DNA of 64,000 bases from Myxococcus landrumus (GTDB lineage: Bacteria; Myxococcota; Myxococcia; Myxococcales; Myxococcaceae), in assembly GCF_017301635.1 (NCBI RefSeq), contig NZ_CP071091.1, positions 2,988,001 to 3,052,000 of the forward strand, read 5' to 3'. Under the pieces are notes generated by a model. It did not search any database and had not been told where the DNA came from. It was given only the letters and a program-made list of their open reading frames with translations. This document shows, piece by piece, positions 13,219 to 26,692 of this stretch (position 1 is its first letter; each line of letters opens with the position of its first letter). The position numbers and the translations under genes were made by a program.

Positions 13219-15215
13219 TGAAGAGACTCATGCTGCTGTCGGCGCTGACCCTGGCCGGCTGTTACACCGACGAGACGCCCCAACCTTCCGGGCTCGGGTC
13301 CTTCCAGGTGTCGGTGAAGGGCATCTACGAGGCGAACACGAACCCGCGCAAGGAAGTGCCGGTCGTGGCCACCTGCGCCGCGAAGTACGGCGGCATCCAG
13401 TCCGCGGTCCCCATGGACGTGCGTGGGACCAAGGACTGTCTGCTGGCCCTGCCCCGGACCGTGGTGGAGATCGACCTGGAGCTCCAGGCGCTGGACGTGA
13501 AGGGCCAGCCCATGGAGAACTTCAACGGTCCGGCCTCCTTCCGGACTGTCCCGGGCAACCTCACCGGCCCCTACCGCTACCGCTGGGCGCAGCTGACGAA
13601 CGGCCGGGGCACGGGCAGCGTGCGCACCGGCCAGCTCTACGGTGAGACCCACGTGTGGGTGGAGGACGAGCCCGTCCAGGTCGACTACGCCAACGGCGAA
13701 GTCGTCCCCGGCGAGCTTCCTCCGGAGCCCGCGCACCGCACCTCGTCCACGGGCCTGTCGCGCTCGCTGTTCTTCGAGGAGCCCACCATCGCCACGGTGC
13801 AGGTGCCGCAGAACGGCAACCAGCAGACGGCGTACAGCGGCACGTTCATGCGCATCGGACGCGCGCCCGAGGCGGGCCCCGCGCTGGTGCAGAACTGCGC
13901 CCCGGATGACCCGAACAACGGCCAGCCCGTCACCCTGCTCGTCACGGGCACGGACCCGGGCGGCTTCTTCGTGACCGACCTGACCGCGTGCCAGGTGCGC
14001 GAGGGCAGCATCGCCGGCTCCGTCTCGCAGTTCACCGCGGAGCCCTCCGGCTTCTACCCGGGCCGGTTCAACTCCATGTTCATCTACAACTACTCCTTCC
14101 CGGAGGGGTTGGACCCGGGTGACCTGCTCTGGTCCATCGCGGGCTCGGTGCAGGAGTTCACCTCCACCACGCAGCTGACGTTCCCCTCGTGGAACATCCG
14201 CGAGAAGGTCCGCCTGCTGCCCCAGGAGCAGTGGAACAAGTACCTGGACCTGGCGAAGCCGGTGGAGATCAACGGCCGCCTCTGTGGCTACACCGCGTCG
14301 CCGTACATCACCGACCCGCTGTGTGGTTACAACTACGGCAACTACAAGATGGAGGGCCTGGAGTCCTCGCTGGTGAAGGTGCGCCGGGTGAAGTTCCCGA
14401 CCGTCTTCAAGAGCTGCGACGCCAACGGCAACAACATGGTGGCCTCCTTCTGCCAGACGGGCAGCTCCGGCTACGGCGCCTGCGGCACGGACTCCCCCAC
14501 CGACACGGACGTGCCCGAGCGCCAGTGCAACATCGACTGCACGCTGGGCCGGGGCGAGTTCCGCGGCAAGCTGTGCACGGAGAAGACGACCTACGACAAC
14601 TTCGGTCAGTTCGTGGTGGAGATGAACCCCACGGGCGCGCCGGCCGCCGGCCTGGATGACTCCGTGCCCGCGCGTCTGCACACCGTGAACGCGGCGCCCC
14701 CCGTGGCCCCCGCCACCGAGCTCTGGACGCGCTCGCCCAACACGTACACGTTCGGCGCGACCATGAACATCTGGTGCGACAAGCCGACCCACGTGCGCTT
14801 CGGCGGTGCGAACCAGCCGGGCCCGGAGACCACCGTGTCGCTGGCCGCGACCACCCGCCTGGAGCGCACGCTCCAGGACGACCAGTCCGTCATCTGGGTC
14901 TCCCCGCAGAACCCGCTCGGCGGTGTGGTCACCTGCACCTTGGCCCAGCACCCGAACACCCGCATCAACCTGGTCACCAAGGACGCGGTGCCGGACCTGG
15001 TGGTCCAGTGTGACCCGAATGACTCCGACACGGAAAAGGCCAAGCAGTGCCAGTTCCTGCGGGGGGCGACGTTCGATGTCGTCGGCCACCTGCGCCATGT
15101 CGGCGCGGCGCGTCCCCGGTGGGTCGTGCTGCCTCGAGACCAGGACGACCTCTGCTGCTACCCCGGTCCGGGCCTGGAGTGCCCGCGTCCCATCAAGCCT
15201 TGCGTGACTCAGTAG
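13218..15215 (+). CDS. Large Cys-containing lipoprotein, unknown function
   Basis: Protein of 665 residues. The start ATG overlaps the upstream stop (TAATG) and gives MKRLMLLSALTLAGC, with a textbook lipobox LAGC. The mature part is beta-rich, with many Cys that could pair, and repeated short beta segments (SFQVSVKGIYEANT, TVVEIDLELQALDVKG, ATMNIWCDKPTHVRFGG). I recognise no domain. It lies in the middle of a three-gene envelope operon: nucleotidase-like lipoprotein, this protein, then an outer-membrane barrel. A joint surface complex is the simplest reading, by inference only. Confidence 0.85.
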   Translation: MKRLMLLSALTLAGCYTDETPQPSGLGSFQVSVKGIYEANTNPRKEVPVVATCAAKYGGIQSAVPMDVRGTKDCLLALPRTVVEIDLELQALDVKGQPMENFNGPASFRTVPGNLTGPYRYRWAQLTNGRGTGSVRTGQLYGETHVWVEDEPVQVDYANGEVVPGELPPEPAHRTSSTGLSRSLFFEEPTIATVQVPQNGNQQTAYSGTFMRIGRAPEAGPALVQNCAPDDPNNGQPVTLLVTGTDPGGFFVTDLTACQVREGSIAGSVSQFTAEPSGFYPGRFNSMFIYNYSFPEGLDPGDLLWSIAGSVQEFTSTTQLTFPSWNIREKVRLLPQEQWNKYLDLAKPVEINGRLCGYTASPYITDPLCGYNYGNYKMEGLESSLVKVRRVKFPTVFKSCDANGNNMVASFCQTGSSGYGACGTDSPTDTDVPERQCNIDCTLGRGEFRGKLCTEKTTYDNFGQFVVEMNPTGAPAAGLDDSVPARLHTVNAAPPVAPATELWTRSPNTYTFGATMNIWCDKPTHVRFGGANQPGPETTVSLAATTRLERTLQDDQSVIWVSPQNPLGGVVTCTLAQHPNTRINLVTKDAVPDLVVQCDPNDSDTEKAKQCQFLRGATFDVVGHLRHVGAARPRWVVLPRDQDDLCCYPGPGLECPRPIKPCVTQ

Positions 15216-15231
15216 ACTTTTGACAAAGCTC

Positions 15232-15253
15232 GCGCCCCGTTTCATCGGGGCGC
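15232..15253 (+). promoter_or_regulatory. Intercistronic hairpin before the barrel gene
   Basis: A perfect 8-bp stem GCGCCCCG/CGGGGCGC with a 6-base loop (TTTCAT) lies 17 bases after the lipoprotein stop and 41 bases before the TTG start of the next gene. No T run follows. It may be an mRNA processing or attenuation site rather than a full terminator. Confidence 0.5.
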
Positions 15254-15294
15254 AGGGAGGAGCGTTCCAAGCGGGCGCTCCGTGGAGAGGGACA

Positions 15295-16827
15295 TTGAAA
15301 ACGCTGCAGAAGCTGGCCCTGTCGGGGCTTATCTCCTTGAGTGCGCCCGCCTGGGCCAGTGACTTCGTGGACACGCGCCTGTCGTTCGTCTTCGCGGACG
15401 ACAACGTGCTGGCGGGCTCGGGCGAAACGACGCCCAACAGCCCCAATGCGCGGTTTGGCGCGGGCAATCAGAACACCCAGTTCTACGACAACTTCAACAC
15501 GCGCTTCTCCGGCTTCGAGTCGCTCTCGAACATCGTGCTCTACAAGCGGGCACCGGCGTTCTTCGAGGGACTGACGACGGAGGCGGCGCTGACGCTGCTG
15601 GTGCTCGAGCGGCCCAGTGGAAACGTCGCCATCCAGGACAACTCCAGCTACATCCGGCTGAACTACCAGCCGCCGGGCTGGGGTGAGAAGGAAGGCGTCT
15701 CGCTCGTCGGCTTCCCGGTGTCCGCGGACCGCTTCCGTCTGGGCTACGCGTACCGCATCTCCTGGGGCGGCAGCGGCGTGTTCACCACGCGCTCGGCCAC
15801 CAACGGCGTGCCCGGCGCCAAGCTGCAGATTACGCGTGAGAAGTGGTACGCGTACGTCGGCGGCAAGACGGCGCTGGTGCAGAACGAGCTCATCCGCGAG
15901 GAAGAGACGCTCTACGGCGTCATGGCCGGCGCGGGCTGGGACATCCTGGACACGCTGCGCGTCGAGGCGGGCGGCGGCTACTTCCAGAAGGGCCTGGTTC
16001 CGGGTCTCGCCACGCTCGGCGTCGAGGCGCCCGTGAATGCGGCGGGCCTGTCCGCCCAGGTCGTCTACCACGTGGGTGTGCCGGTCGGCACGAGCGTGGA
16101 CTTCCGGCTCTACAAGAACGACCCGGAGATCTACGAGCGCTTCTTCGCGCCGGAGCAGTACCCGGGTGGCCTGTCCTACTCCGTGTCGCTCGAGGGCAGC
16201 TACCTGTCCCAGACGCTGGAGAAGCCGGACGAGTTCGGCGCGACCAAGCCCCAGGGCGCCACGGCGCTGGCGCTCCAGGCGCGCGCCAAGCTGGGCTTCC
16301 TGCGCATGAACGTGCTGGGCCTGTACCGCAGCCTCTCGTACATCCAGTTCGACGTGCCGGGCTTCCCCCCGTTCCAGGACTTCCCCGAGGGGACGAAGCT
16401 GAACCCGGAGATGTTCCTGGCCATCGGCGCGGACTACCACCTGCCGAAGCTGCACTTCACGCCCGGCGTCATCGTCGGCGTGCAGCGTCCGGCGTCGTTC
16501 CGCAGCCCCTCGCCCGTGCTGGGTGGCAACAACCCGCCGGCGAACCTGATTGGCACGCGCACCGTGGTGGTGCGTGACGTCAACCAGCTGAGCATCCTGC
16601 CGGAGACGTGCGGTGGTTCGGGCGCGTGCGGCGCGGAGCCCATCTACTCCGCCAAGGCCACGTTCCGCTGGGACCTGTCGGACTCCGTCGCCGCGGTCGG
16701 CGAGGTCTACTACACGTACGACACCAACCGGACCACGTTCCGCGACGACATCACCGGCGTGGCGCAGCCCACGTTCGAGAAGCCGCACGCGCTGGGCTTC
16801 AACACGCTGCTGCAGGCGCGCTTCTAG
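15295..16827 (+). CDS. Outer-membrane beta-barrel protein, unknown function
   Basis: Protein of 510 residues. I choose the TTG at 15295 because GGAGAGG lies 5-6 bases upstream and the product begins with a good signal peptide (KTLQKLALSGLISLSAPAWA, cleaved before SDF). Any earlier start would put about 25 odd residues ahead of it. The mature part has alternating amphipathic strands with many Tyr/Phe/Trp, short turns, and ends in QARF with a C-terminal Phe, the signal for BAM-dependent insertion. The loop ETCGGSGACGAEP may hold a disulfide. It is last in the operon with two lipoproteins. It is not TonB-dependent (no plug domain). Confidence 0.85.
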   Translation: MKTLQKLALSGLISLSAPAWASDFVDTRLSFVFADDNVLAGSGETTPNSPNARFGAGNQNTQFYDNFNTRFSGFESLSNIVLYKRAPAFFEGLTTEAALTLLVLERPSGNVAIQDNSSYIRLNYQPPGWGEKEGVSLVGFPVSADRFRLGYAYRISWGGSGVFTTRSATNGVPGAKLQITREKWYAYVGGKTALVQNELIREEETLYGVMAGAGWDILDTLRVEAGGGYFQKGLVPGLATLGVEAPVNAAGLSAQVVYHVGVPVGTSVDFRLYKNDPEIYERFFAPEQYPGGLSYSVSLEGSYLSQTLEKPDEFGATKPQGATALALQARAKLGFLRMNVLGLYRSLSYIQFDVPGFPPFQDFPEGTKLNPEMFLAIGADYHLPKLHFTPGVIVGVQRPASFRSPSPVLGGNNPPANLIGTRTVVVRDVNQLSILPETCGGSGACGAEPIYSAKATFRWDLSDSVAAVGEVYYTYDTNRTTFRDDITGVAQPTFEKPHALGFNTLLQARF

Positions 16828-16855: not shown

Positions 16856-16887
16856 CGGCCCGGTCCCCTTCCCTGGGGGCCGGGCCG
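16856..16887 (+). terminator. Hairpin terminator of the barrel operon (array hairpin 1)
   Basis: A 13-bp stem CGGCCCGGTCCCC/GGGGGCCGGGCCG (one T-G pair) with a 6-base loop is followed by CTGTCATTCCAG. The same design follows each lipoprotein gene downstream. Confidence 0.8.
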
Positions 16888-16913
16888 CTGTCATTCCAGG
16901 CCTGGGCACGTCC

Positions 16914-16953
16914 GATTCAACCGACAGTGAATTGGCGACTATGCAATAATTAC
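16914..16953 (+). promoter_or_regulatory. Conserved upstream block of lipoprotein paralogue 1
   Basis: A 40-base block beginning GATTCA and containing GAATTGGCGACTATGC and CAATAAT aligns without gaps with 18627-18666 upstream of paralogue 2. Both end 67 bases before the respective ATG. It is probably the promoter; the sigma class is not clear. Confidence 0.45.
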
Positions 16954-17020
16954 AGGGTTCGAGCTGGAGAGGGGGTGGCACGCGGTCTGGCCATGGCTCG
17001 AGCCGAAAGCAGGATGAACG

Positions 17021-18481
17021 ATGCGATGTCGTGACACGGCGGTGTTGCTGGCTGTGCTGGTCGTCATGGGTTGCTCCCCGTCGAAAGACGAAGGTGGCGA
17101 AGGACCGGGGCCGGAGACGCCCGACGACTTCTACAAGAGCGGCTCCCGGCTGAAGGCGCAGGTGACGACCACGGTGGACGGCCTGCGCTGGCCGAGCGAA
17201 GGGCTCCTCTGGTTCGACATCACATTGAACCAACCCTGCTCCTGGGAAGAGACCGCCGCGGACGGCGCCGTCTCCTGCATCCCGCGCGAGATGAACTCCA
17301 TCCCCTCAGGGAAGGTCGGCTTCTACTTCGACGCGAGCTGCACCGAGGGGCTCATCATCCGGTCTGAACCTCTCACTCCAGGTCCCCACTTCGCGAGGAA
17401 GGGGGCCGCGTGTGGCGAGTACCCGCGCTACCACTTCATGGGGGACTTGGTCTCGAACACGACCGCGTACTTCCATGACGGCACGACGTGCTCGGCAGTG
17501 TCCCTGCCCCCCACGTCCAAGGTGTATCGCGTGGGAGCCATGGTGACCGCGGGGACCTTCGCGAGAGGGGCCTTGAAGGAGCGGACGAGGGACTCCGGCA
17601 TCTCGGCCCACTTCATCGACGGCGAAGATGGGTCGGCGCAATTCGCTCGCCTCCACGACACGGTCCGGGACACCGCCTGCGGGAACCACTGGGCAAGCGA
17701 CGGAAAGAAGCGCTGCCTGCCAGTCGGCGCCACCACCGCACACGGCCAGGGGGCCTTCGCCGCGGCGAACACGACGTGCACCGAACCCGCCTACTCCGCG
17801 ACCTGCATGACGGCGCCCCGCTTCGCGGTGACCTTCGCGCAATCGTCGTGTGCCCCTGGCTCCAAGGTCCACGAGGCCGGGGAGCAGGTCACCCAGGTCT
17901 ACAGCGCCGCGGGCGCGGGCGTGTGCCAGCCGCTCACGATGGTGCCTCCAGATACCCGCTTCTTCCGGGGGGGCGCAGAGATTCCGGCCTCCCACTTCGT
18001 GGAGCTGAAGGAGGTCGACCTCAAGACCCACGGCCGGCTCAAGGTGCGTGGGATGGCAGCGGGTGACTCGGTCCGGATTCCCGTCGTGGTGCACGACACC
18101 GAGCTCAACACCGACTGCAGGTTCCTGGAGGACGCGAGCCGAAAGCTGCGCTGCTTCCCCCTCTCGAACCTCAGCAGCAATCAAAGCCTCTTCGCGGACT
18201 CCGCATGCACGAGTCCGTTGGGCCTCGAAGACGTGCCGACGTGCGCGTCCTCTCCCCCATCCCGCCATGTCCTCGTGCGCACCTTCACTGCGACGACGCC
18301 GTACTACCGCGCCTACAACGCAGGCCCGAAGCACGACGGTCCCATTTTCGAACGCGCACCAGGGGGAGGGACGCCGAGCACCTGTCAGCCAGCGCAGCGT
18401 GCATCCGGGGCCACGTACTACTCACTGGGGACGGAAATCGCGGCGACTTCATTGGTTGAAGGCACGCGAATCCGGGAATGA
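17021..18481 (+). CDS. Array lipoprotein, paralogue 1
   Basis: Lipoprotein of 486 residues, function unknown. The signal is MRCRDTAVLLAVLVVMGC with lipobox VMGC, then an acidic/Gly linker (KDEGGEGPGPETPDD). The mature part is three repeats of about 146 residues. Each holds a Cys-x(11-13)-[RS]C-[LFI]-P signature (Cys at 73, 220 and 366) followed by an ACT or TCTEP element, and a YR-x-G element. Paired Cys in each module suggest disulfides and an extracytoplasmic location. Its neighbours 2 and 3 share the whole architecture. A conserved sequence block lies 67 bases upstream and a strong hairpin follows. I do not recognise a named function. Confidence 0.88.
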   Translation: MRCRDTAVLLAVLVVMGCSPSKDEGGEGPGPETPDDFYKSGSRLKAQVTTTVDGLRWPSEGLLWFDITLNQPCSWEETAADGAVSCIPREMNSIPSGKVGFYFDASCTEGLIIRSEPLTPGPHFARKGAACGEYPRYHFMGDLVSNTTAYFHDGTTCSAVSLPPTSKVYRVGAMVTAGTFARGALKERTRDSGISAHFIDGEDGSAQFARLHDTVRDTACGNHWASDGKKRCLPVGATTAHGQGAFAAANTTCTEPAYSATCMTAPRFAVTFAQSSCAPGSKVHEAGEQVTQVYSAAGAGVCQPLTMVPPDTRFFRGGAEIPASHFVELKEVDLKTHGRLKVRGMAAGDSVRIPVVVHDTELNTDCRFLEDASRKLRCFPLSNLSSNQSLFADSACTSPLGLEDVPTCASSPPSRHVLVRTFTATTPYYRAYNAGPKHDGPIFERAPGGGTPSTCQPAQRASGATYYSLGTEIAATSLVEGTRIRE

Positions 18482-18531
18482 CGCTCCAAGGTTGAGCGCG
18501 AAGCCTCTCCACTGCTGAGCGACCAAGACAT

Positions 18532-18563
18532 CGGCCCGGCTCTCTCGCATGGGGGCCGGGCCG
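18532..18563 (+). terminator. Array hairpin 2
   Basis: Stem CGGCCCGGCTCTC/GGGGGCCGGGCCG (13 bp with T-G pairs), 6-base loop, then CTGTGTTTCCAGG. The geometry is identical to the hairpin at 16856. It follows paralogue 1. Confidence 0.8.
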
Positions 18564-18626
18564 CTGTGTTTCCAGGCCCGCGTGGCAGCGCACAGCGACA
18601 GGGCAAGAGGACACACAACCCGTGCG

Positions 18627-18666
18627 GATTCAGTCCACAACGAATTGACGTTCATGCGACAATCGC
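18627..18666 (+). promoter_or_regulatory. Conserved upstream block of lipoprotein paralogue 2
   Basis: Counterpart of 16914-16953: GATTCA..., then CGAATTGACGTTCATGCGAC. It has the same 67-base distance to the start codon as in paralogue 1. Confidence 0.45.
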
Positions 18667-18733
18667 GGGGCCAGGGCCGGAGAGAGACGGCACGAGGGGG
18701 GGTCCACGGCTCGTGCCGCGTGCGGGAAGAACC

Positions 18734-20194
18734 ATGCGGAGTCGCTACACAGGGTTGTTGCTGGCAGTGACGGTGGTGCTGGGATGCCCCTCGTCAGATG
18801 ACGGAGGAGAAGGGCCTGGGGGCGGGAACCCCGAGGAGTTCTACAAGGGGGGCTCACGTCTCAAGGCCCAGGTGACGAAGACAGCGGAGGGCGTGCGCTG
18901 GCCGAGCGAGGGGTATCAGTGGTTCGACAGCACGTTGAACCAGATCTGCCTCTGGCAGGAGACCGGTACGGATGGAGCCTTCTCCTGCGTACCGCGAGAC
19001 ATGGACACCCTCCCCAACGGCGAGGCGGGCTTTTTCGTCGATGCGAGCTGCACGGAGAAGCTGCTCAGCCGGAGCGCGCCGCTGCCTTCGGGCTCCCACT
19101 TCGTGAGGAAGCAGGGCGCCTGTGGCGAACCCTCGCGCTTCTACTCCGTGGGGGAGCCGTTCACGAACACGACCGCGTACTACAAGTCCGGCGCGAGCTG
19201 CCGCTCCTTCTCCGTGCCGTCCAACGACAAGATGTACCGGGTCGGGGCGGAGGTGGCCGCGGGAACCTTCGCCCGAGGAACGCTGCGCATCGGGGTGAGC
19301 GACGCCCGCCTGTCGCTCCAGTTCATCGAAGGCGAGGATGGCTCGGGGCAGTTCGTCCGCCTCATGGACACGGCCCGGAACACCGCCTGTGGGGCGCGCT
19401 GGGCGAGCGACGGGAAGTCTCGATGCCTGCCGCTCGGCCCCACCACCGCACTGGGCCAGTTGCCCTTCACCGCGGCGAACGAGTCGTGCACCGAAACCGC
19501 GTTCGCCTCGACCTGCGTGACGGCGCCCCGCTTCGCGGTGAACTACTCGCAAGGGCCGTGTGGGCCTGGCGCCAAGGTTCATGAGGTCGGGGAGCAGCTC
19601 GCGCAGGCCTACTCCTCGGCGGGTTCGGGCGTGTGCCAGCCACTCACGCGGGCGCCTGTCGATACGTTCTACTTCCGCGCGGGAGCCGAGGTTCCCCCCT
19701 CCAACTTCGTGGAGGCGAAGGAGATCGACATCAAGACCCATGGCCGGCTCAAGGTGCGCGGCGTGGCGCTGGGTGACTCGGTCAAGGTTCCCCTGATGCT
19801 GCACGACACCGAGCTGAACACCCCCTGCGACTTCATGGAGGACATGAACCGGAAGCTGCGCTGCTTCCCCAGCTCGAGCACCTTCACCAGCAACGACCTC
19901 TTCGCAGATGCCGCCTGCACGACGCCCCTGGCCATCGATGACAACCCGACGTGCGCGGCGGCACCCCCTTCCCGTTACATCATCCAGTCCACCTTCACGG
20001 GAGACGGGCCCCCGCGCTACCGCGCGTACCACGCAGGCGCGAAGCACGACGGTCCCGTCTTCGTACGCCCCATGGGCGGAGGGACGCCGGCGGGTTGTCG
20101 GTCCGCACAGCGGATTCCGGAGGCCACGTACTACAAGCTGGGCGCGGAGATCGCCGCCACCTCACTGGTCGAAGGCACGCCAGGACGAGACTGA
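18734..20194 (+). CDS. Array lipoprotein, paralogue 2
   Basis: Lipoprotein of 486 residues, exactly the length of paralogue 1. The ATG at 18734 gives MRSRYTGLLLAVTVVLGC with lipobox VLGC. The longer in-frame upstream extension is basic and out of character, so I reject it. The mature protein repeats the three-module plan, with shared stretches such as GSRLKAQVT, IEGEDGSGQFVRL, IKTHGRLKVRG and DTELNTPC. The C-terminus YRAYHAGAKHDGPVF and SLVEGT matches paralogue 1. Its own upstream block and downstream hairpin suggest it can be transcribed separately. The function is unknown; the role could be adhesion or surface display. Confidence 0.88.
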   Translation: MRSRYTGLLLAVTVVLGCPSSDDGGEGPGGGNPEEFYKGGSRLKAQVTKTAEGVRWPSEGYQWFDSTLNQICLWQETGTDGAFSCVPRDMDTLPNGEAGFFVDASCTEKLLSRSAPLPSGSHFVRKQGACGEPSRFYSVGEPFTNTTAYYKSGASCRSFSVPSNDKMYRVGAEVAAGTFARGTLRIGVSDARLSLQFIEGEDGSGQFVRLMDTARNTACGARWASDGKSRCLPLGPTTALGQLPFTAANESCTETAFASTCVTAPRFAVNYSQGPCGPGAKVHEVGEQLAQAYSSAGSGVCQPLTRAPVDTFYFRAGAEVPPSNFVEAKEIDIKTHGRLKVRGVALGDSVKVPLMLHDTELNTPCDFMEDMNRKLRCFPSSSTFTSNDLFADAACTTPLAIDDNPTCAAAPPSRYIIQSTFTGDGPPRYRAYHAGAKHDGPVFVRPMGGGTPAGCRSAQRIPEATYYKLGAEIAATSLVEGTPGRD

Positions 20195-20244
20195 CGCTCC
20201 GGGGTTGAGCACCAAGACGCCTCACCATGGCGGATGAGAGACGA

Positions 20245-20276
20245 CGGCCCGGACCCCTTTCACGGAGGCCGGGCCG
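20245..20276 (+). terminator. Array hairpin 3
   Basis: Arms CGGCCCGGACCCC and GGAGGCCGGGCCG (two mismatches) with a 6-base loop, then CTGTCGTTCCAG. Same 13-6-13 geometry. It follows paralogue 2. Confidence 0.75.
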
Positions 20277-20458
20277 CTGTCGTTCCAGATTTGGGATTCT
20301 TGAGCGGCGCAACGTTTGGAGGCTGAACCCATGACATCGGTCGACTGTCGGGTTGTCGCCGCGCTGCGTTGGGGCTAAGCCCATGTCTCCGGCCTTGGGG
20401 GCTGGATGGACGCGGCATGGGGGCCGCGCCACTACTCGAGCATCATCGGGAACACACC

Positions 20459-21925
20459 ATGCGTTGCATCTACACAGGATTGGTGCTGGCTGTGCTGTGG
20501 GGGACTGGTTGCGGTGGAACCAAGGACTCGGATGACGACAACAATCCGGGGCCGGGTGGCGAACCAGGAGGGACCATCAACCTCGCCGACTTCTACAAGA
20601 GCGGCTCGCGCATCAAGGCCCAGGTGACGACCACGACCGACGGCCTGCGCTGGCCGGATGAGTGGCACGACAGCAAGCTGAAGAAGCCTTGCACCTGGGA
20701 GACCGCGGGCGCGGATGGTGCCCTCTACTGCGTGCCGGGTGGCATGGAGTACATCCCGAATGGAGGCTCGGGTTACTACTTCGATGCGAGCTGCACCGAG
20801 GGCATCGTGGTCACCTCCGAGCCCGTGGCCGCGACTGACTTCTTCGTGAAGCGCAGCACCGGATGTGGCGTGAACCCGCGCTACCACACCGTGGGCGCCG
20901 AAATCACGACGTCCGTCTACGCCAAGAGCAGCTCGGGCACCTGCTCCTCCATTCCCGTGTCGACGGGCTTCAAGGCCTATCGCCCCGGTCCCGAGGTCGC
21001 CGCTGGCACCTTCGTTCGCGCCACGGTGAAGCAGAAGCAGACCGACAAGGGCGTCACGGTTCACTTCATGGAGGGTGAGGACGGCTCGGCGCAGTTCCAC
21101 CACGTCCAGGACACGGCCCGGAACACGGAGTGCGCCATCCAGAAGGCGAGCGACAACAAGCTGCGCTGCCTGCCCTCCGGTGCCACCACCGCGTCGGGCA
21201 ATGCGGCGATCGCCTCGGTGAACTCGACCTGCACCGAGCCCGCCTTCTATTCCACCTGCGGGACGCCCGAGTTCGCGGTGACCTTCGAGCAGGACCGGTG
21301 TGGTCCCGGCGCCAAGGTCTACGCGACCGGTGCGAAGGTCACGCAGATCTACGGCACGACGGGCACGGGCTCGTGCCAGGCGCACCCGCAGACGCCTCCG
21401 AACTTCACCTACTACCGCGCGGGCGCGGAGATTGCCGCCGCGAGCTTCGTGGAGGCGAAGGAGCTCGACATCAAGACCTTTGGCCGGCTCAAGGTGCGTG
21501 GCGCGGGAATGGGCGACAAGGTCCAGATTCCCATGATGCTGCACGACACGCAGCTGAACACCCCCTGTGCCTTCATGAAGGACTCGGCGGGCGCGAAGCG
21601 TTGCTTCCCCACCTCCAGCATCTTCTCCACGGGGACCCTCTTCGCGGATGACGCGTGCAAGAACCCGGTGGGCCTCGCCAACACGACCACGTGCACCCCG
21701 GACCGCTACGTGCTCGCGAACGACGTGTCGAATCCGTCGGACACGACCTACCGCGCGTACAACGTGGGCCAGCAGTTCAATGGCACCGTCTACGTCAGCA
21801 TGGTGTTCGGCACCGGCGCGCCCCGCTGCATGCAGACCGAGCGCATCCCCGGGTCCACGTACTACACCCTGGGCTCCGAGATTGCCGCCGCGTCGTTGGT
21901 CCTGGGCACGACCAAGGTGGAGTAA
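20459..21925 (+). CDS. Array lipoprotein, paralogue 3
   Basis: Lipoprotein of 488 residues with signal MRCIYTGLVLAVLWGTGC (lipobox GTGC) and linker SDDDNNPGPGGEPGG. Three modules as in the other paralogues; shared elements include GSRIKAQVTTTTDGLRW, GEDGSAQFHHVQDTARNT, LDIKTFGRLKVRG and DTQLNTPC. It is somewhat more diverged than copies 1 and 2. Its upstream region of 264 bases does not carry the 40-base block seen before copies 1 and 2, so its control may differ. The collapsed fourth copy resembles this one most (GCG-TKDSD after the lipobox). Confidence 0.88.
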   Translation: MRCIYTGLVLAVLWGTGCGGTKDSDDDNNPGPGGEPGGTINLADFYKSGSRIKAQVTTTTDGLRWPDEWHDSKLKKPCTWETAGADGALYCVPGGMEYIPNGGSGYYFDASCTEGIVVTSEPVAATDFFVKRSTGCGVNPRYHTVGAEITTSVYAKSSSGTCSSIPVSTGFKAYRPGPEVAAGTFVRATVKQKQTDKGVTVHFMEGEDGSAQFHHVQDTARNTECAIQKASDNKLRCLPSGATTASGNAAIASVNSTCTEPAFYSTCGTPEFAVTFEQDRCGPGAKVYATGAKVTQIYGTTGTGSCQAHPQTPPNFTYYRAGAEIAAASFVEAKELDIKTFGRLKVRGAGMGDKVQIPMMLHDTQLNTPCAFMKDSAGAKRCFPTSSIFSTGTLFADDACKNPVGLANTTTCTPDRYVLANDVSNPSDTTYRAYNVGQQFNGTVYVSMVFGTGAPRCMQTERIPGSTYYTLGSEIAAASLVLGTTKVE

Positions 21926-21972
21926 CGCTTCGGAGCAAGCCTCGCGGCGTCCGCGCCGCGACGTAACTCCAC

Positions 21973-22010
21973 ACAACGACCCGGTCACCTCTTGGTGGTC
22001 GGGTCGTTGT
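21973..22010 (+). terminator. Array hairpin 4
   Basis: A 17-bp stem, from ACAACGACCCGG... to ...CGGGTCGTTGT, with two G-T pairs and a 4-base loop, followed by CATTCCAG. It follows paralogue 3. It is a diverged relative of the other array hairpins. Confidence 0.8.
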
Positions 22011-22026
22011 CATTCCAGCAGACTTC

Positions 22027-22336
22027 GTGTCAACTGGACACTCAATCTTCCTGCGCCTTGTGCACCTGATGGGATGCGGGAGCACGAAGGATTCGGATGA
22101 AGAGGGGCCTGGGGGAGAGCCACCGAAGGAGGTATCGCACCTGCGCAGTGGGCGCGCGGTACGAGGGAGCCATCCATGTCTGGGTTCAGGCCAGCCCCAG
22201 CGCACCCGCCGAATGCATGCAGGGAGAACGTCAGTCTGGCCATGCATTCTACTGTCTCGGCGAGGAGCTTCCCGCCTGGTCGCTGGTTCAGGGGACGAAG
22301 CGCATCGACTGGCATTCCGCGAGGGTGAGAGCCTGA
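22027..22336 (+). pseudogene. Collapsed fourth copy of the array lipoprotein
   Basis: The first part reads (one frame) a hydrophobic stretch, then LMGCGSTKDSDEEGPGGEP, matching the lipobox and linker of paralogue 3. From 22133 a different frame reads YRTCAVGARYEGAIHVWVQ, later MQGERQSGHAFYCLGEELP and SLVQGTKRID, matching the last about 60 residues of the paralogues. Everything between, about 400 residues, is missing and the junction shifts frame, so no full-length product can form. A related hairpin follows at 22338. Decay by internal deletion is the best explanation. Confidence 0.85.
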
Positions 22337-22337
22337 C

Positions 22338-22371
22338 GACGGCCCGGTCCTCTCTGAGTGGCCAGGCCGTC
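22338..22371 (+). terminator. Array hairpin 5
   Basis: Stem GACGGCC.GGTCC against GTGGCC.GGCCGTC with one internal mismatch, followed by TGTCTTTTC. It is the diverged partner of hairpins 1-4, after the collapsed copy. Confidence 0.6.
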
Positions 22372-22412
22372 TGTCTTTTCATCTCCGCGTCGCCCCAGGG
22401 CGCGTGGACCGC

Positions 22413-23033
22413 TCAACCTCGCGAAGGCTCGCACCCCAGCGTCATCTCGGGGAAGGCTGCGGACCACGCGGACCGAATGGCAACCAACGTGGCCTTCGCA
22501 TCCTGCGCATTGGCACTCCCCTCCCCCACCTGCTCCCAGAAAGGGAAGTGCGCGAACACCGCCTCCTGATTCGCCATCACCTCGCGGTGAAGGGCGCCCG
22601 CATCCTGGGCACGGAGGGTCCGCAACACCTCGAACTGGTCGCGCGCGTTCTTCCCTTTCAGCGCGGACTCCGTGGGAACCACTCCAGCGAACGACGCGCC
22701 GAAGAAGGCGCCCAGCACACGAACCGTCCCCTGGATGTGGTCATTGAACACGTCGAGTGCCTCGGCGGGAACCCAGAGCTCCACGTGCTCTCGGCCCCCC
22801 ACCTGCTGCACCTCGAAGGAACGTGCATGCGAGTCCTCGACGTCGAACTCCGAGACGTAACCGGCCAGCGTCCCGCTCTTCGTGTTCCAATCCCGAGCAA
22901 TCTGCTCCGCGTACCCACGATTGAGCACCGGATAGAAGATGGGTTGGTCTGGCAGGCGCGGCGGAAACCGCCGCATCCCAGCCCGGTAGATCAACAGCAA
23001 CTCCTCAAGCCCGACAGGTCGAAACAGAATCAC
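22413..23033 (-). CDS. ADP-ribosylation/crystallin J1-like small protein
   Basis: Protein of 206 residues. The first about 115 residues (FRPVGLEELLLIYRAGMRRF, PPRLPDQPIFYPVLNRGYAEQ, IARDWNTKSG, VELWVPAEALDVFNDHI) match a family that databases label ADP-ribosylation/crystallin J1; that name comes from weak similarity and no activity is established. The C-terminal about 80 residues (FEVLRTLRAQDAGALHREVM...FPFWEQVG) are an Ala-rich helical extension I do not recognise. It has no signal peptide. It follows the GspE-like gene by 42 bases on the same strand and may be co-transcribed. Confidence 0.75.
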   Translation of the reverse strand: MILFRPVGLEELLLIYRAGMRRFPPRLPDQPIFYPVLNRGYAEQIARDWNTKSGTLAGYVSEFDVEDSHARSFEVQQVGGREHVELWVPAEALDVFNDHIQGTVRVLGAFFGASFAGVVPTESALKGKNARDQFEVLRTLRAQDAGALHREVMANQEAVFAHFPFWEQVGEGSANAQDAKATLVAIRSAWSAAFPEMTLGCEPSRG

Positions 23034-23075: not shown

Positions 23076-24920
23076 CTACGCCGACGTCATGCGTACCACT
23101 TCATCGAAGGCGGTGAGCCCCTGCGCCAGCTTGCGCACCGCGGCCTCGCGCAGCGTGCGCATGCCTCCGCGCCGGGCAATCTCCACCAGCTTCTCGTACG
23201 GCGACTCGCGAGCAATGTGCTCTCGCAGCTCGCCATTCGTGGTGACGATTTCAAAGACACCCGTACGGCCCACGTAGCCCGTGCCTCGGCACCTCACGCA
23301 GCCCGCGCCCTTGAGCACCCGCACTCCCCCCGGCAACAACGGCAACGGGGCCTGGAGCGCCAGCAGCTCATCGGGTGTGAGGCTCGCCTCCTCCGCGCAA
23401 TGACTGCACACCCGTCGCAGCAGTCGCTGCGCCATGACCCCGAGCAGGCTCTGCGCCAGGAGGAACGAGGGCACACCCAGGTCCCTCATTCGCGCCACCG
23501 CCCCCAACGCGTCATTCGTGTGCAGCGTGGACAGCACCAGGTGGCCCGTGAGCGCGGACTGGATGGCGTTCTCCGCCGTCTCCGTGTCGCGAATCTCGCC
23601 CACCATGATGACGTCCGGGTCCTGGCGCAGGATGTGGCGCAGCGCCCCCGCGAAGTCGAGCCCCACCTTGGGCTGCACCTGCACCTGGTTGAAGGCGTCC
23701 CACACCATTTCGATGGGGTCTTCAATCGTGGTGACGTTGACGTCCGGCCCCGCCAGCGCCTTGAGCGCCGAGTAGAGCGTCGTCGTCTTCCCGCTGCCCG
23801 TGGGCCCCGTGACGAGGATGAGCCCATGCGGCTGGTCTATCCACGACTCGAAGGAGCCCTTCTCGTCCGGCTCGAACCCGAGCTGGGCAATGTCCTGCAC
23901 CAGCGTCTCCGGGTCGAAGATGCGGATGACCACCTTCTCGCCGAAGGCCGTGGGCAGCGTGCTGACGCGCAACTCCACCTCGCGCCCGTCCCGCTCCGTC
24001 TTGATGCGGCCGTCCTGCGCCTTGCGCTTCTCCGAGATGTCGATGCGCGCGAGCATCTTCACGCGCGAGACGATGGGCGGATGCACCTGCGCCGGCAGCG
24101 AGTACACCGGGTGCAGCACACCGTCGATGCGCAGCCGCACCACGCTGGTGGACCGCTTGGGCTCGATGTGGATATCCGAGGCGCGGTTGTCGAACGCGTA
24201 GCGCAAGAGGTAGTCCACCGCCTGGACCACGGGCCGGTCCGACGCCTCCAACTCCTGCGTCCCGCTGAGCGAGACGAGCTGCTCGAAGTTGGAGACTTGC
24301 TGCGCGCTCGCCACGCTGCCGAAGTCATCCGCCGCGCGCGCCAGCGTCTTCTTGAAGCCATAGATGTCCGAGATGGCCTTGAGGATGTCCGCCTTCGCGC
24401 TCAACACCGGCTCCACGGGCATCCCCGTGAGCCGATGGAAGCTCTCGAACAACTCGCGGTCGAACGGATTGGCCACGGCGACCACCAGCCGCCCCTGGGC
24501 CGTGCGCTCCAGAGGCAGCAGGACATGCTTCTGCGCATAGGGCCGGGACACGGTGCGCGTGGCCAGCGTCATGTCCAGCTTGAGCGGGTCTATCTTCCGA
24601 TAGGCCAGCCCCGCCGCGCGGGCGGCGGCCTCGGTGACGCGGTCCTCGTCCAGCACACCCCGGCCATTGGCCAGGGGTATCTGGAATGCGGCCACCACCT
24701 CCACCGGCGACACGTCGTACCGTGCGGCATCCTTGCCGCCAGTGGCCGTCTGCGTCTTGAGGACGCGGGCTCTCGCCGCGCCCTCCTTCGCGAGCACCTC
24801 CTGGGCTTGCTGTGGTGTCAGCAGCCCTTGCCCCACGAGCGCCTCGAGGACGAACAGGGTGGTGAAATCAACCCGGCTCCTCGCCGGCGATGGGCTCGAG
24901 CCGCTCACTGCTTGTGCCAA
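23076..24920 (-). CDS. GspE/PilB-family secretion or pilus assembly ATPase
   Basis: Hexameric ATPase that powers type II secretion or type IV pilus extension, 614 residues. An N-terminal T2SSE-N-type domain is followed by the ATPase domain: Walker A GPTGSGKTTTLYSAL (Lys about 377), Asp box TTIEDPIE, Walker B LRQDPDVIMVGEIRD, His box LSTLHTNDALGA. The zinc-binding Cys tetrad is C505xxC508 and C541xxC544. Start: the TTG at 24920 has GGAAGGAG 6 bases upstream; a GTG at 24908 overlapping the upstream stop (GTGA) is the alternative. Either way it overlaps the protease gene. No other Gsp or Pil gene is in the window, so the machine it serves is undetermined. Confidence 0.9.
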   Translation of the reverse strand: MAQAVSGSSPSPARSRVDFTTLFVLEALVGQGLLTPQQAQEVLAKEGAARARVLKTQTATGGKDAARYDVSPVEVVAAFQIPLANGRGVLDEDRVTEAAARAAGLAYRKIDPLKLDMTLATRTVSRPYAQKHVLLPLERTAQGRLVVAVANPFDRELFESFHRLTGMPVEPVLSAKADILKAISDIYGFKKTLARAADDFGSVASAQQVSNFEQLVSLSGTQELEASDRPVVQAVDYLLRYAFDNRASDIHIEPKRSTSVVRLRIDGVLHPVYSLPAQVHPPIVSRVKMLARIDISEKRKAQDGRIKTERDGREVELRVSTLPTAFGEKVVIRIFDPETLVQDIAQLGFEPDEKGSFESWIDQPHGLILVTGPTGSGKTTTLYSALKALAGPDVNVTTIEDPIEMVWDAFNQVQVQPKVGLDFAGALRHILRQDPDVIMVGEIRDTETAENAIQSALTGHLVLSTLHTNDALGAVARMRDLGVPSFLLAQSLLGVMAQRLLRRVCSHCAEEASLTPDELLALQAPLPLLPGGVRVLKGAGCVRCRGTGYVGRTGVFEIVTTNGELREHIARESPYEKLVEIARRGGMRTLREAAVRKLAQGLTAFDEVVRMTSA

Positions 24921-26692
24921 TTCCGTCTCCTTCCAGCCACGAGCAGCAGCAGGACCAGGGCCCCCAGGAACGCCGCCGACACCGGCGTGCTCTGGCAACC
25001 ACAGCCACCCGACTCTCCCTTGGGGCTTTCAGGGCCCGCGTCCGGGAGCGGCGGCGGAGTCCCCGCGTCATTGCACAACACGCAGCCTCCCGCGTCCGGC
25101 CGCGCCTTGGGATCGTAACAGGTCCCCCCATTGCCACAGCGCATCGAGGGTCCGCAGTCCTGGTCCGACTGGCAGGCGGGGTGGCAGGCAGGAGTCCCCT
25201 GCTCCGTCGTGCCGCAGCGGAGGGAGGAGGCACACGTGCTCGCCGCGCAGTACTTCATGCACGCACGCTCTCCATCCTTGTTCACCACCTGACACGACGT
25301 CCCGCCAGGGCAGGAGCAGGACGCCACCGAGCACGGCTGAGCGCAGACGCCCTGGGGGTTGCCCTCCGCGAAGAGGCAGTACTGATTGGTGCCGCACTCC
25401 GCGTCGGCCGTGCACGCATCGCCCACCTGCTTCGCCGACGTCTTCTTCGGCACACAGACGCGGTCGCACGTCCTGCAGACGGAGTTGCTGTCGCAATCCT
25501 GGTCACCAAAGCAACCCGGGACACAGACGTTGCCCTCGGCGCGGGCCTCGCACGTATAGCCAGGGCGGCAATCGCTTCCATTCACGTCGCAGGTCTTCAA
25601 GCAGATGGAGCCCTGCCCCGGCATTCTGGCGCACTCGGCGCCCGCGGGGCATGAACCCGCGCCACTGCAAGCCTCCGTGCAGTAGCCCAGGTCCCAGCGG
25701 TCGAAGTCGCCGTTGCCCGACGGAGTGGTCACGGGAGGAATACAGGTGCCGTTGGTGTTGCCACAGGCCCGAGGCCCTGGCGTGCACTCGCGGCCCACCG
25801 GCGTCACGCCGTCGGGCAGGGCGGGGAGACACGCCTGGGTGGAGCCAGCGACGAGCGTGGAGGCACGGCACACGTAGGGGTCCGGACACTCACCGGTGGT
25901 CGTGCCCGAGCAGCCCTTCGCGCAGACCTTGAGGTCCTTGCCGGAGACGGTGGAGGGCACGGTGACACACGTCAGGCCGGTGCCACACGCGGAGGAGTCA
26001 CAGGGTGAGCCCACCGCGCCCGTCTTCGGATAGAAGCGGCACAGCGCGGAGGTGTCGTAGCTGGCGAGCGTCCTGCGGGTCTCCCCTTCCGGAAGGTAGA
26101 AGAACATCACCGCGCCCTGGGCCTCATAGGAGTCGCCCAGGCCCAGGCAGTGGCCAATCTCGTGCATCAGGGTGCTCTGGATGTCCAGGTGACCCGAGGG
26201 CGTGGGCGTCTGGGTGGACCAGCGGTGGTCCACCGCATTGAGGAAGATGTCGCACTGGTACACGTAGCCCGCGAAGGTCAGCGGCCTCGCCGCCGCGGGT
26301 CTGTCCCCGCCCCTGAGCGAGTCCACGTACCTGGGGTCCTGCCGGTCCGTCACCCAGACGGGGACGACGTTGAAGCGGTCCGCCGGGTCATCCACCTTCG
26401 GCATGGGTGAGCCCGTCGTGGCCACGCCCCCGTCCGGAGGGAAGGAGAAGACGGGCCAGGCACAGTTCACACCCTGCCACGCCTGGAAGGCCGCGCGGCT
26501 GGCCGCCACCACCTTGGCCAGGTCGTTTCCCGCGGGCAGCGACGAGCGCCCATCCACGTAGAAGACGAAGGGGTCCGCTGGCGTGCTGAGCACGCGATGA
26601 CCCAGGTCCTTGTATTCCACTTCCTGAGCCGCCGCCGTCACGGCCAACAGCAGACCCAGCACCCCGGCGACTCGCTGCGAACCCCGCATCAT
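24905..26692 (-). CDS. Secreted metzincin-type metalloprotease with MYXO-CTERM tail
   Basis: Predicted zinc protease, 595 residues. Signal peptide MRGSQRVAGVLGLLLAVTAAAQ; start ATG at 26692 preceded by GGAGGGG at 6 bases. The zinc motif is H177EIGHCLGLGD187S. The HExxHxxGxx frame is that of metzincins, but the third ligand position is Asp, as in snapalysins, not His as in matrixins. A Met-turn candidate (GAVMFFYLP) follows. The second half is a chain of short Cys-rich repeats (CVPGCFGDQDCDSNSVC and similar). The C-terminus GGCGCQSTPVSAAFLGALVL...RRR is a MYXO-CTERM sorting signal, which in myxobacteria is cut by a myxosortase to leave a surface-anchored protein. Its gene overlaps a GspE-family ATPase gene. 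Confidence 0.9.
   Translation of the reverse strand: MMRGSQRVAGVLGLLLAVTAAAQEVEYKDLGHRVLSTPADPFVFYVDGRSSLPAGNDLAKVVAASRAAFQAWQGVNCAWPVFSFPPDGGVATTGSPMPKVDDPADRFNVVPVWVTDRQDPRYVDSLRGGDRPAAARPLTFAGYVYQCDIFLNAVDHRWSTQTPTPSGHLDIQSTLMHEIGHCLGLGDSYEAQGAVMFFYLPEGETRRTLASYDTSALCRFYPKTGAVGSPCDSSACGTGLTCVTVPSTVSGKDLKVCAKGCSGTTTGECPDPYVCRASTLVAGSTQACLPALPDGVTPVGRECTPGPRACGNTNGTCIPPVTTPSGNGDFDRWDLGYCTEACSGAGSCPAGAECARMPGQGSICLKTCDVNGSDCRPGYTCEARAEGNVCVPGCFGDQDCDSNSVCRTCDRVCVPKKTSAKQVGDACTADAECGTNQYCLFAEGNPQGVCAQPCSVASCSCPGGTSCQVVNKDGERACMKYCAASTCASSLRCGTTEQGTPACHPACQSDQDCGPSMRCGNGGTCYDPKARPDAGGCVLCNDAGTPPPLPDAGPESPKGESGGCGCQSTPVSAAFLGALVLLLLVAGRRRNWHKQ

Follow-up and report, generated by a model that had tools for sequence, protein, structure and literature searches.

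The three intact array genes encode predicted lipoproteins of the Pfam family DUF7481, each built from three tandem copies of a cysteine-rich unit of ~145 residues. This architecture of three repeats, each holding as many as six conserved cysteines, together with the occurrence of the unit on its own in other proteins, is new here. The best explanation, to which we give roughly an even chance of being right, is that the three units form a closed pseudo-trimeric ring serving as a surface binding head, with gene copies turned over by recombination. The window (the whole stretch of 64,000 nucleotides of Myxococcus landrumus DNA that was analyzed) is part of a single-contig genome of 10,367,529 bases, and its relevant features are collected in Table 1.

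Table 1. Coordinates of the array, its repeats and hairpins, and flanking genes, in positions of the window.
Feature	Position	Strand	Remarks
Barrel gene (so called by the sequence-only reading)	15220..16827	+	flank outside the array; no Pfam match
Terminator-like hairpin after barrel gene	16857..16886	+	first of the repeated set
Gene A, DUF7481 lipoprotein	17021..18481	+	486 aa, three repeats
Gene A repeat 1	17129..17584	+	cysteines C1-C3, C5, C6
Gene A repeat 2	17579..18022	+	cysteines C1-C6
Gene A repeat 3	18017..18478	+	cysteines C1-C4, C6
Barrel-hairpin copy after gene A	18529..18566	+	
Gene B, DUF7481 lipoprotein	18734..20194	+	486 aa, three repeats
Gene B repeats 1-3	18839..20191	+	18839-19294, 19289-19732, 19727-20191
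Copy of barrel-hairpin region after gene B	20242..20291	+	arm score below the strict finder's listing
Gene C, DUF7481 lipoprotein	20459..21925	+	488 aa, three repeats
Gene C repeats 1-3	20591..21922	+	20591-21037, 21032-21472, 21467-21922
Diverged barrel-hairpin copy after gene C	21976..22018	+	below the finder's arm score; by eye
Collapsed fourth copy, group D	22068..22337	+	lipobox/linker piece and last ~65-70 codons
Hairpin after remnant	22338..22371	+	by eye; matches hairpin after intact orthologues
206-aa protein, flanking accessory gene	22413..23033	-	no family match
gspE-like secretion ATPase, right edge of site	23076..24998	-	convergent with barrel gene; name assigned from sequence

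Array genes and family membership

The three same-strand lipoprotein genes of 486, 486, and 488 residues described by the sequence-only reading were confirmed at the coordinates in Table 1, as was their paralogy: the products of genes B and C are 62% and 50% identical to that of gene A, and the intact copies retrieved one another at E values of 7e-141 or better. DNA repeats across the array are mostly spaced 1710-1752 bases apart. The precursors carry an N-terminal signal peptide with a lipobox at Cys18 (...VVMGC18 in gene A, ...VVLGC18 in gene B, and ...WGTGC18 in gene C; read by eye) and a short Gly/Pro/acidic linker, in keeping with the export predicted earlier. The proteins are also as rich in cysteine as had been claimed, with 16 mature cysteines in each after subtracting the lipobox cysteine and, where present, Cys3.

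All three proteins exceeded the curated DUF7481 (PF24297) cut-off of 26.1, scoring 93.0 (A), 77.6 (B), and 92.3 (C) bits, and the 425-position model matched along the proteins in varying registers. The Pfam model detected DUF7481 in 14 of 195 Myxococcota genomes and in eight of the 27 sampled genomes of the genus Myxococcus, while a single-unit model (E <= 1e-4) placed the family in 25 of the 195. In the window's own genome, further intact DUF7481 genes lie outside the array at 7.816 Mb and 9.636 Mb. Beside the latter, another DUF7481 gene (9.634-9.6355 Mb; L046:6272-7738, - strand) is split between two frames and is therefore broken or misassembled.

The suggestion that the array represents an undescribed system holds in part: the family is already catalogued as DUF7481, but it is uncharacterized, which agrees with the absence of an assigned function in the earlier reading, and our literature search found no paper that names "DUF7481". 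Pfam returned nothing but DUF7481, and no toxin domain, for all three proteins; PADLOC gave no match for P0001 and P0003, nor did PHROGs for P0001, so that no known anti-phage defense or toxin family was recognized in these searches. NCBIfam gave nothing beyond a chance-level match to one of these proteins. Sequence searches of the PDB returned no match for gene C and a single chance-level match (E 0.5) for the unit profile.

Unit architecture and single-unit relatives

Comparison by hhalign between thirds of a 19-row alignment (A2) gave probabilities of 98.8-99.1 and E values of 9e-17 to 9e-19, and the unit profile matched each window protein three times (1e-30 to 8e-47). Among 55 matching open reading frames (ORFs), 31 had three units and four had two strong units and one weak one (L071, L072, L073, and L075); these were pooled as 35 three-unit ORFs. 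The single-unit form occurred in 11 ORFs from other Myxococcota, five ORFs were partial or unresolved (L074, L111, L113, L118, and L120), and four were decay fragments. No clear two-unit or four-unit protein was present among the 55; L118 and L074, the latter cut by a contig end, gave two unit matches only. A tree of the repeats was mostly unresolved outside the genus, within which r1, r2, and r3 tended to cluster by position, and one supported pair joined the first repeat of the G025 triple with the collagen-stalked single unit of G033. The halves of the unit shared no similarity by hhalign (E 0.19, within the range of 20 shuffles), leaving a propeller with two blades per unit unsupported.

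A collagen-like GXY stretch of at least six triplets stands just before the unit in five of the 11 single-unit ORFs versus none of the 35 three-unit ORFs (one-sided Fisher P 3e-4, calculated by hand from rows that are not independent). These five stalked ORFs (L048, L078, L108, L109, and L117) span two families and three genera and thus do not represent five independent cases; L048, L108, and L117 exceeded the cut-off of the Pfam Collagen model, L078 and L109 scored under it, and a signal peptide was legible by eye in L078, L108, and L109. Because Pfam Collagen matches are few in the five genomes concerned (six in G026, four each in G033, G070, and G071, and none in G074), the association between collagen and unit is not a background effect. 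The collagen stretch is absent from the other six single-unit ORFs, and none of the three window proteins has a GXY stalk. In PHROGs, L109 matched tail-fiber entries with a best E of 8e-13, most of the match falling on the GXY stretch, and it had no tblastn match in phages. One single-unit protein (L114:6443-7102, + strand) lies behind the stretch SAGGAIRAEEMNSNFDAVRASF, which we take to resemble trimeric fiber stalks.

Cysteine pattern and a possible ring

Six cysteine positions (C1-C6) were recognized in an alignment of 110 repeats, with C3 present in all 110. The joint loss of C1 and C2 in all six repeats that lack either suggests that these two pair in a disulfide within the unit, and, by exclusion, a C3-C6 disulfide within the unit is suggested as well. 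In single units, C4 and C5 were both present in four and both missing in six, with L117 the odd one (10 of 11 concordant). In 21 of the 24 Myxococcus triples, r1 lacks C4 only and r3 lacks C5 only; in the remaining three (L036 twice and L037), r1C5 is also missing and r2 holds a seventh cysteine. Distant triples show other C4/C5 combinations.

When protein types were compared, C5 of one repeat and C4 of the next, taken cyclically, were concordant in 25 of 30 pairs (permutation P 0.0007), with the states of distant proteins coded by eye and several types sharing one genome and so not fully independent. The alternatives fared worse, with 13 of 30 pairs concordant within repeats (P 0.91) and nine of 30 in the reverse direction (P 1.0). 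The eight informative types coded first gave 20 of 24 (P 0.0036; within-repeat 10, reverse 8), to which the larger count adds L120, which stops at a contig end, and L075, both coded after the idea was formed; dropping two possibly dependent types gave 21 of 24 (P 0.0017). No cysteine count includes L118 (not alignable) or L074, L111, and L113 (partial), and L047, though among the three-unit ORFs, was kept out of the pair counts with its last repeat cut; it fits cyclic pairing by eye. All five discordant pairs belong to protein types that carry an additional, seventh cysteine (by eye), which could stand in for the missing partner. L072 and L120 have the closing pair, r3C5-r1C4, only (by eye).

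A closed ring of three units is the simplest reading of this covariation, and from the cyclic concordance we infer a pseudo-trimeric arrangement. The three units would close with pseudo-three-fold symmetry, pinned by C1-C2 and C3-C6 inside each unit and by C5(i)-C4(i+1) between neighbors. Each window protein has three like units in its chain; cysteine covariation across types supports a link between r3 and r1, but the closing pair itself is absent from the window proteins. The three-unit protein would then correspond, in one chain, to the homotrimer that is expected to arise when collagen joins three single-unit chains, and collagen-stalked single units presumably make the ring from three chains. 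More broadly, DUF7481 may represent a new kind of surface head, a ring of three units joined by cysteines that is either homotrimeric and borne on a collagen-like stalk or formed by one lipid-anchored chain of three units, with Myxococcus swapping, multiplying, and discarding variants at one fixed site. We hold this wider reading only tentatively, at somewhat under an even chance, and as part of it the C5-C4 disulfides of the stalked homotrimer would be interchain.

Structure prediction of one copy, proposed earlier as a check, could be carried out for gene A but was of poor quality. AlphaFold2, given a three-row alignment of the window proteins, returned mainly beta strands with a pLDDT of 54 and a pTM of 0.39, which is too poor to use, and none of the 289 matches in a Foldseek search of PDB folds reached E <= 0.001.

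Gain, loss, and divergence at the array site

The gene order around the site is nucleotidase, lipoprotein, barrel, array, 206-aa gene (-), gspE (-), matrixin-like protease (-), hemD, and hemC, with the gspE, hemD, and hemC names assigned from sequence. Neither the upstream 664-aa lipoprotein (13221-15215) nor the barrel protein has a Pfam or NCBIfam family match. The barrel gene is present in all 27 sampled genomes of the genus, and the gap between it and gspE contains DUF7481 genes in seven (G003, G005, G008, G009, G011, G014, and the window genome, G000), is empty and just 88-349 bp long in 16, and is unreadable at contig ends or rearrangements in four (G004, G010, G019, and G143). The comparison of copy number and order that had been called for therefore revealed one site with one to three intact copies, though occupied in only seven genomes: one copy in G005 and G011, two in G003, G008, and G009, and three in G000 and G014; G000 and G009 each have a remnant as well. 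By tree, ortholog group A comprises G000 and G014; B, G000 and G008; C, G000, G008, G009, and G014; and D, G014, G009, and the remnant in G000. When two empty sites were set against an occupied relative, homology stopped just after the barrel hairpin, and in one of the two it resumed at the gspE end.

A 22-base motif of the barrel hairpin, searched with up to three mismatches, occurs at five sites in the genome: one behind the barrel gene, one behind each of genes A, B, and C, and a fifth at another place, there with three mismatches. The barrel hairpin is also present at empty sites (by eye), and in G014, G009, and G008 hairpins follow the barrel gene and some or all array genes. In G003 and G005 the strict finder, which also missed the copies after window genes B and C, found none after any DUF7481 gene. 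We infer that the unit duplicated in the window's clade is gene plus hairpin; duplicated together, they form direct repeats that would favor gain and loss. Copies may thus be gained and lost by unequal recombination between hairpin copies and genes, which would leave each lineage with a different set of heads.

The broken fourth copy is real, as judged by blastn against the intact G014 orthologue, which matched positions 22068-22131 at 81% and 22134-22382 at 79% identity, the second stretch taking in the hairpin after the gene; the end coordinate of 22371 given in the earlier reading is the end of this hairpin. Relative to the orthologue, the remnant has two internal deletions (~141 bp and ~1.19 kb) and lacks the start and most of the coding region, with ~65 bases kept around the lipobox and linker. 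Its pieces were matched more clearly by this orthologue (E 2e-43 and 1e-10) than by the gene C protein (E 1e-5 and 0.3). Group D is intact in G014 and G009 and collapsed in the window genome, and G009 is the mirror image, with the first copy decayed (L034:10517-11431, - strand) and the fourth intact. Decay is therefore lineage-specific, and the copies and remnant together bear out the proposed local amplification, in which copies have both multiplied and decayed.

Array orthologues of G000 and its relatives (five pairs) are 74-84% identical, with dS of 0.26-0.46 and dN/dS of 0.26-0.42, and their changes are spread over all three repeats. Compared with G014, identity and dN/dS were 99.4% and 0.04 for the barrel gene, 96.7% and 0.08 for gspE, 96.4% and 0.22 for the nucleotidase, 96.0% and 0.18 for hemD, and 94.7% and 0.13 for the protease. 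The 206-aa neighbor is as diverged as the array (82.1%, dN/dS 0.26, dS 0.40). In the array dS is raised as well as dN, as would be expected of old alleles, of exchange, or of hidden paralogues, combined with moderate constraint, and not of clear positive selection. Since the upstream 664-aa lipoprotein gene (93.8%) has a dN/dS of 0.40, as high as that of the array, relaxed evolution alone does not mark a special role.

Among the sites read, the 206-aa protein is found at the array's right edge only in G000, G008, G009, and G014; of the 27 genomes, 18 others have more distant relatives of it away from this site, and searches of Pfam, NCBIfam, and PHROGs gave no match for the protein. In all three genomes examined for it, one and the same small lipoprotein-like gene lies behind the 7.8-Mb DUF7481 orthogroup (L045:5975-6658, L039:4363-5157, and L043:6814-7527), making this gene a possible partner. 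Across different DUF7481 loci, no recurring partner gene was seen when neighbors were compared by eye.

Predicted localization and function

In the Myxococcus lipoprotein sorting rules given in PMC3222651, Lys at +2 directs proteins to the inner membrane and Ala at +7 to the matrix. The array proteins have neither, with S, P, and G at +2 and E, G, and S at +7 in A, B, and C, and by these sorting rules all three should be outer membrane lipoproteins. The ring would be held there by its lipid anchor, acting as a putative ligand-binding head. No signature of an enzyme, a toxin, or a recurring partner was found for the array proteins, and a putative surface binding head is most likely their function.

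Alternative explanations

The three units could instead be beads on a string, that is, independent domains that add avidity or length without forming a ring, with the odd cysteines tracing to one ancestral loss in Myxococcus. The clustering of repeats by position within the genus accords with this, as the loss of C4 from r1 and C5 from r3 in 21 of 24 proteins may be one inherited event, and the predicted structure of gene A, having no clear arrangement of units, favors it too. However, other lineages show different, complementary losses that fit cyclic pairing (L072 and L120, for example, retain just the closing pair), and no protein clearly has two or four units. We consider independent domains unlikely, though a serious competitor to the closed ring.

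Two further readings concern what the array is for. The genes could form a diversifying set of social or competitive lipoproteins, for example of the SitBAI toxin/immunity type, with paralogues serving to mark kin or to protect them. The variable array of lipoproteins would suit such a role, as would their divergence relative to the barrel, gspE, lipoprotein, nucleotidase, hemD, and protease genes (94-99% identity), even if the 206-aa neighbor is equally diverged; yet the Pfam, PADLOC, and PHROGs searches described above revealed no toxin domain, the copies are alike over their full length without a variable C-terminus, and no small cognate gene was recognized within the array by eye, leaving this explanation improbable. 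The sequence-only reading had also proposed that the array belongs to one surface system with the nucleotidase, lipoprotein, and barrel genes upstream. Their adjacency on the same strand is kept in all seven genomes with an occupied site, but a barrel gene found throughout the genus beside a site that is empty in 16 genomes, the terminator-like hairpin between barrel and array, and the further DUF7481 loci elsewhere in the same genome speak against that proposal and make it very improbable indeed.

Significance and comparison with known systems

The closed-ring reading turns a Pfam entry without a function into a testable structural model with unit boundaries, disulfide connectivity, and symmetry. 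If true, it provides one head in two natural forms, a trimer and a single-chain pseudo-trimer, for studying how oligomers evolve into single chains. The site itself is a cleanly delimited variable locus whose empty versions can be read, and it belongs to a genus for which surface recognition is important.

The name of the existing entry for the family, Pfam PF24297, conveys neither the ~145-residue unit nor the cysteine logic found here. SitBAI proteins are transferable toxin/immunity lipoproteins of myxobacteria. The array resembles them in consisting of variable, multi-copy Myxococcus lipoproteins but differs in having no toxin domain or recognized immunity gene. The lectin of Ralstonia solanacearum and the fungal six-bladed lectin AAL illustrate how one closed ring can be made by three chains or by a single repeat-bearing chain. 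They offer a precedent for the trimer versus single-chain ring, although no sequence or fold link to DUF7481 was found, and Foldseek listed Ralstonia lectin only in weak rows without meaning. Collagen-like adhesins (SclA/SclB and Lcl; NF038330, NF038329, and NF046116) share with five single-unit relatives the GXY stretch before a head, and the NCBIfam collagen-adhesin matches of the two relatives tested, L048 and L109, fall mainly on the GXY part and far under the cut-offs. Unlike these adhesins, the window proteins are stalkless and carry three units in one chain.
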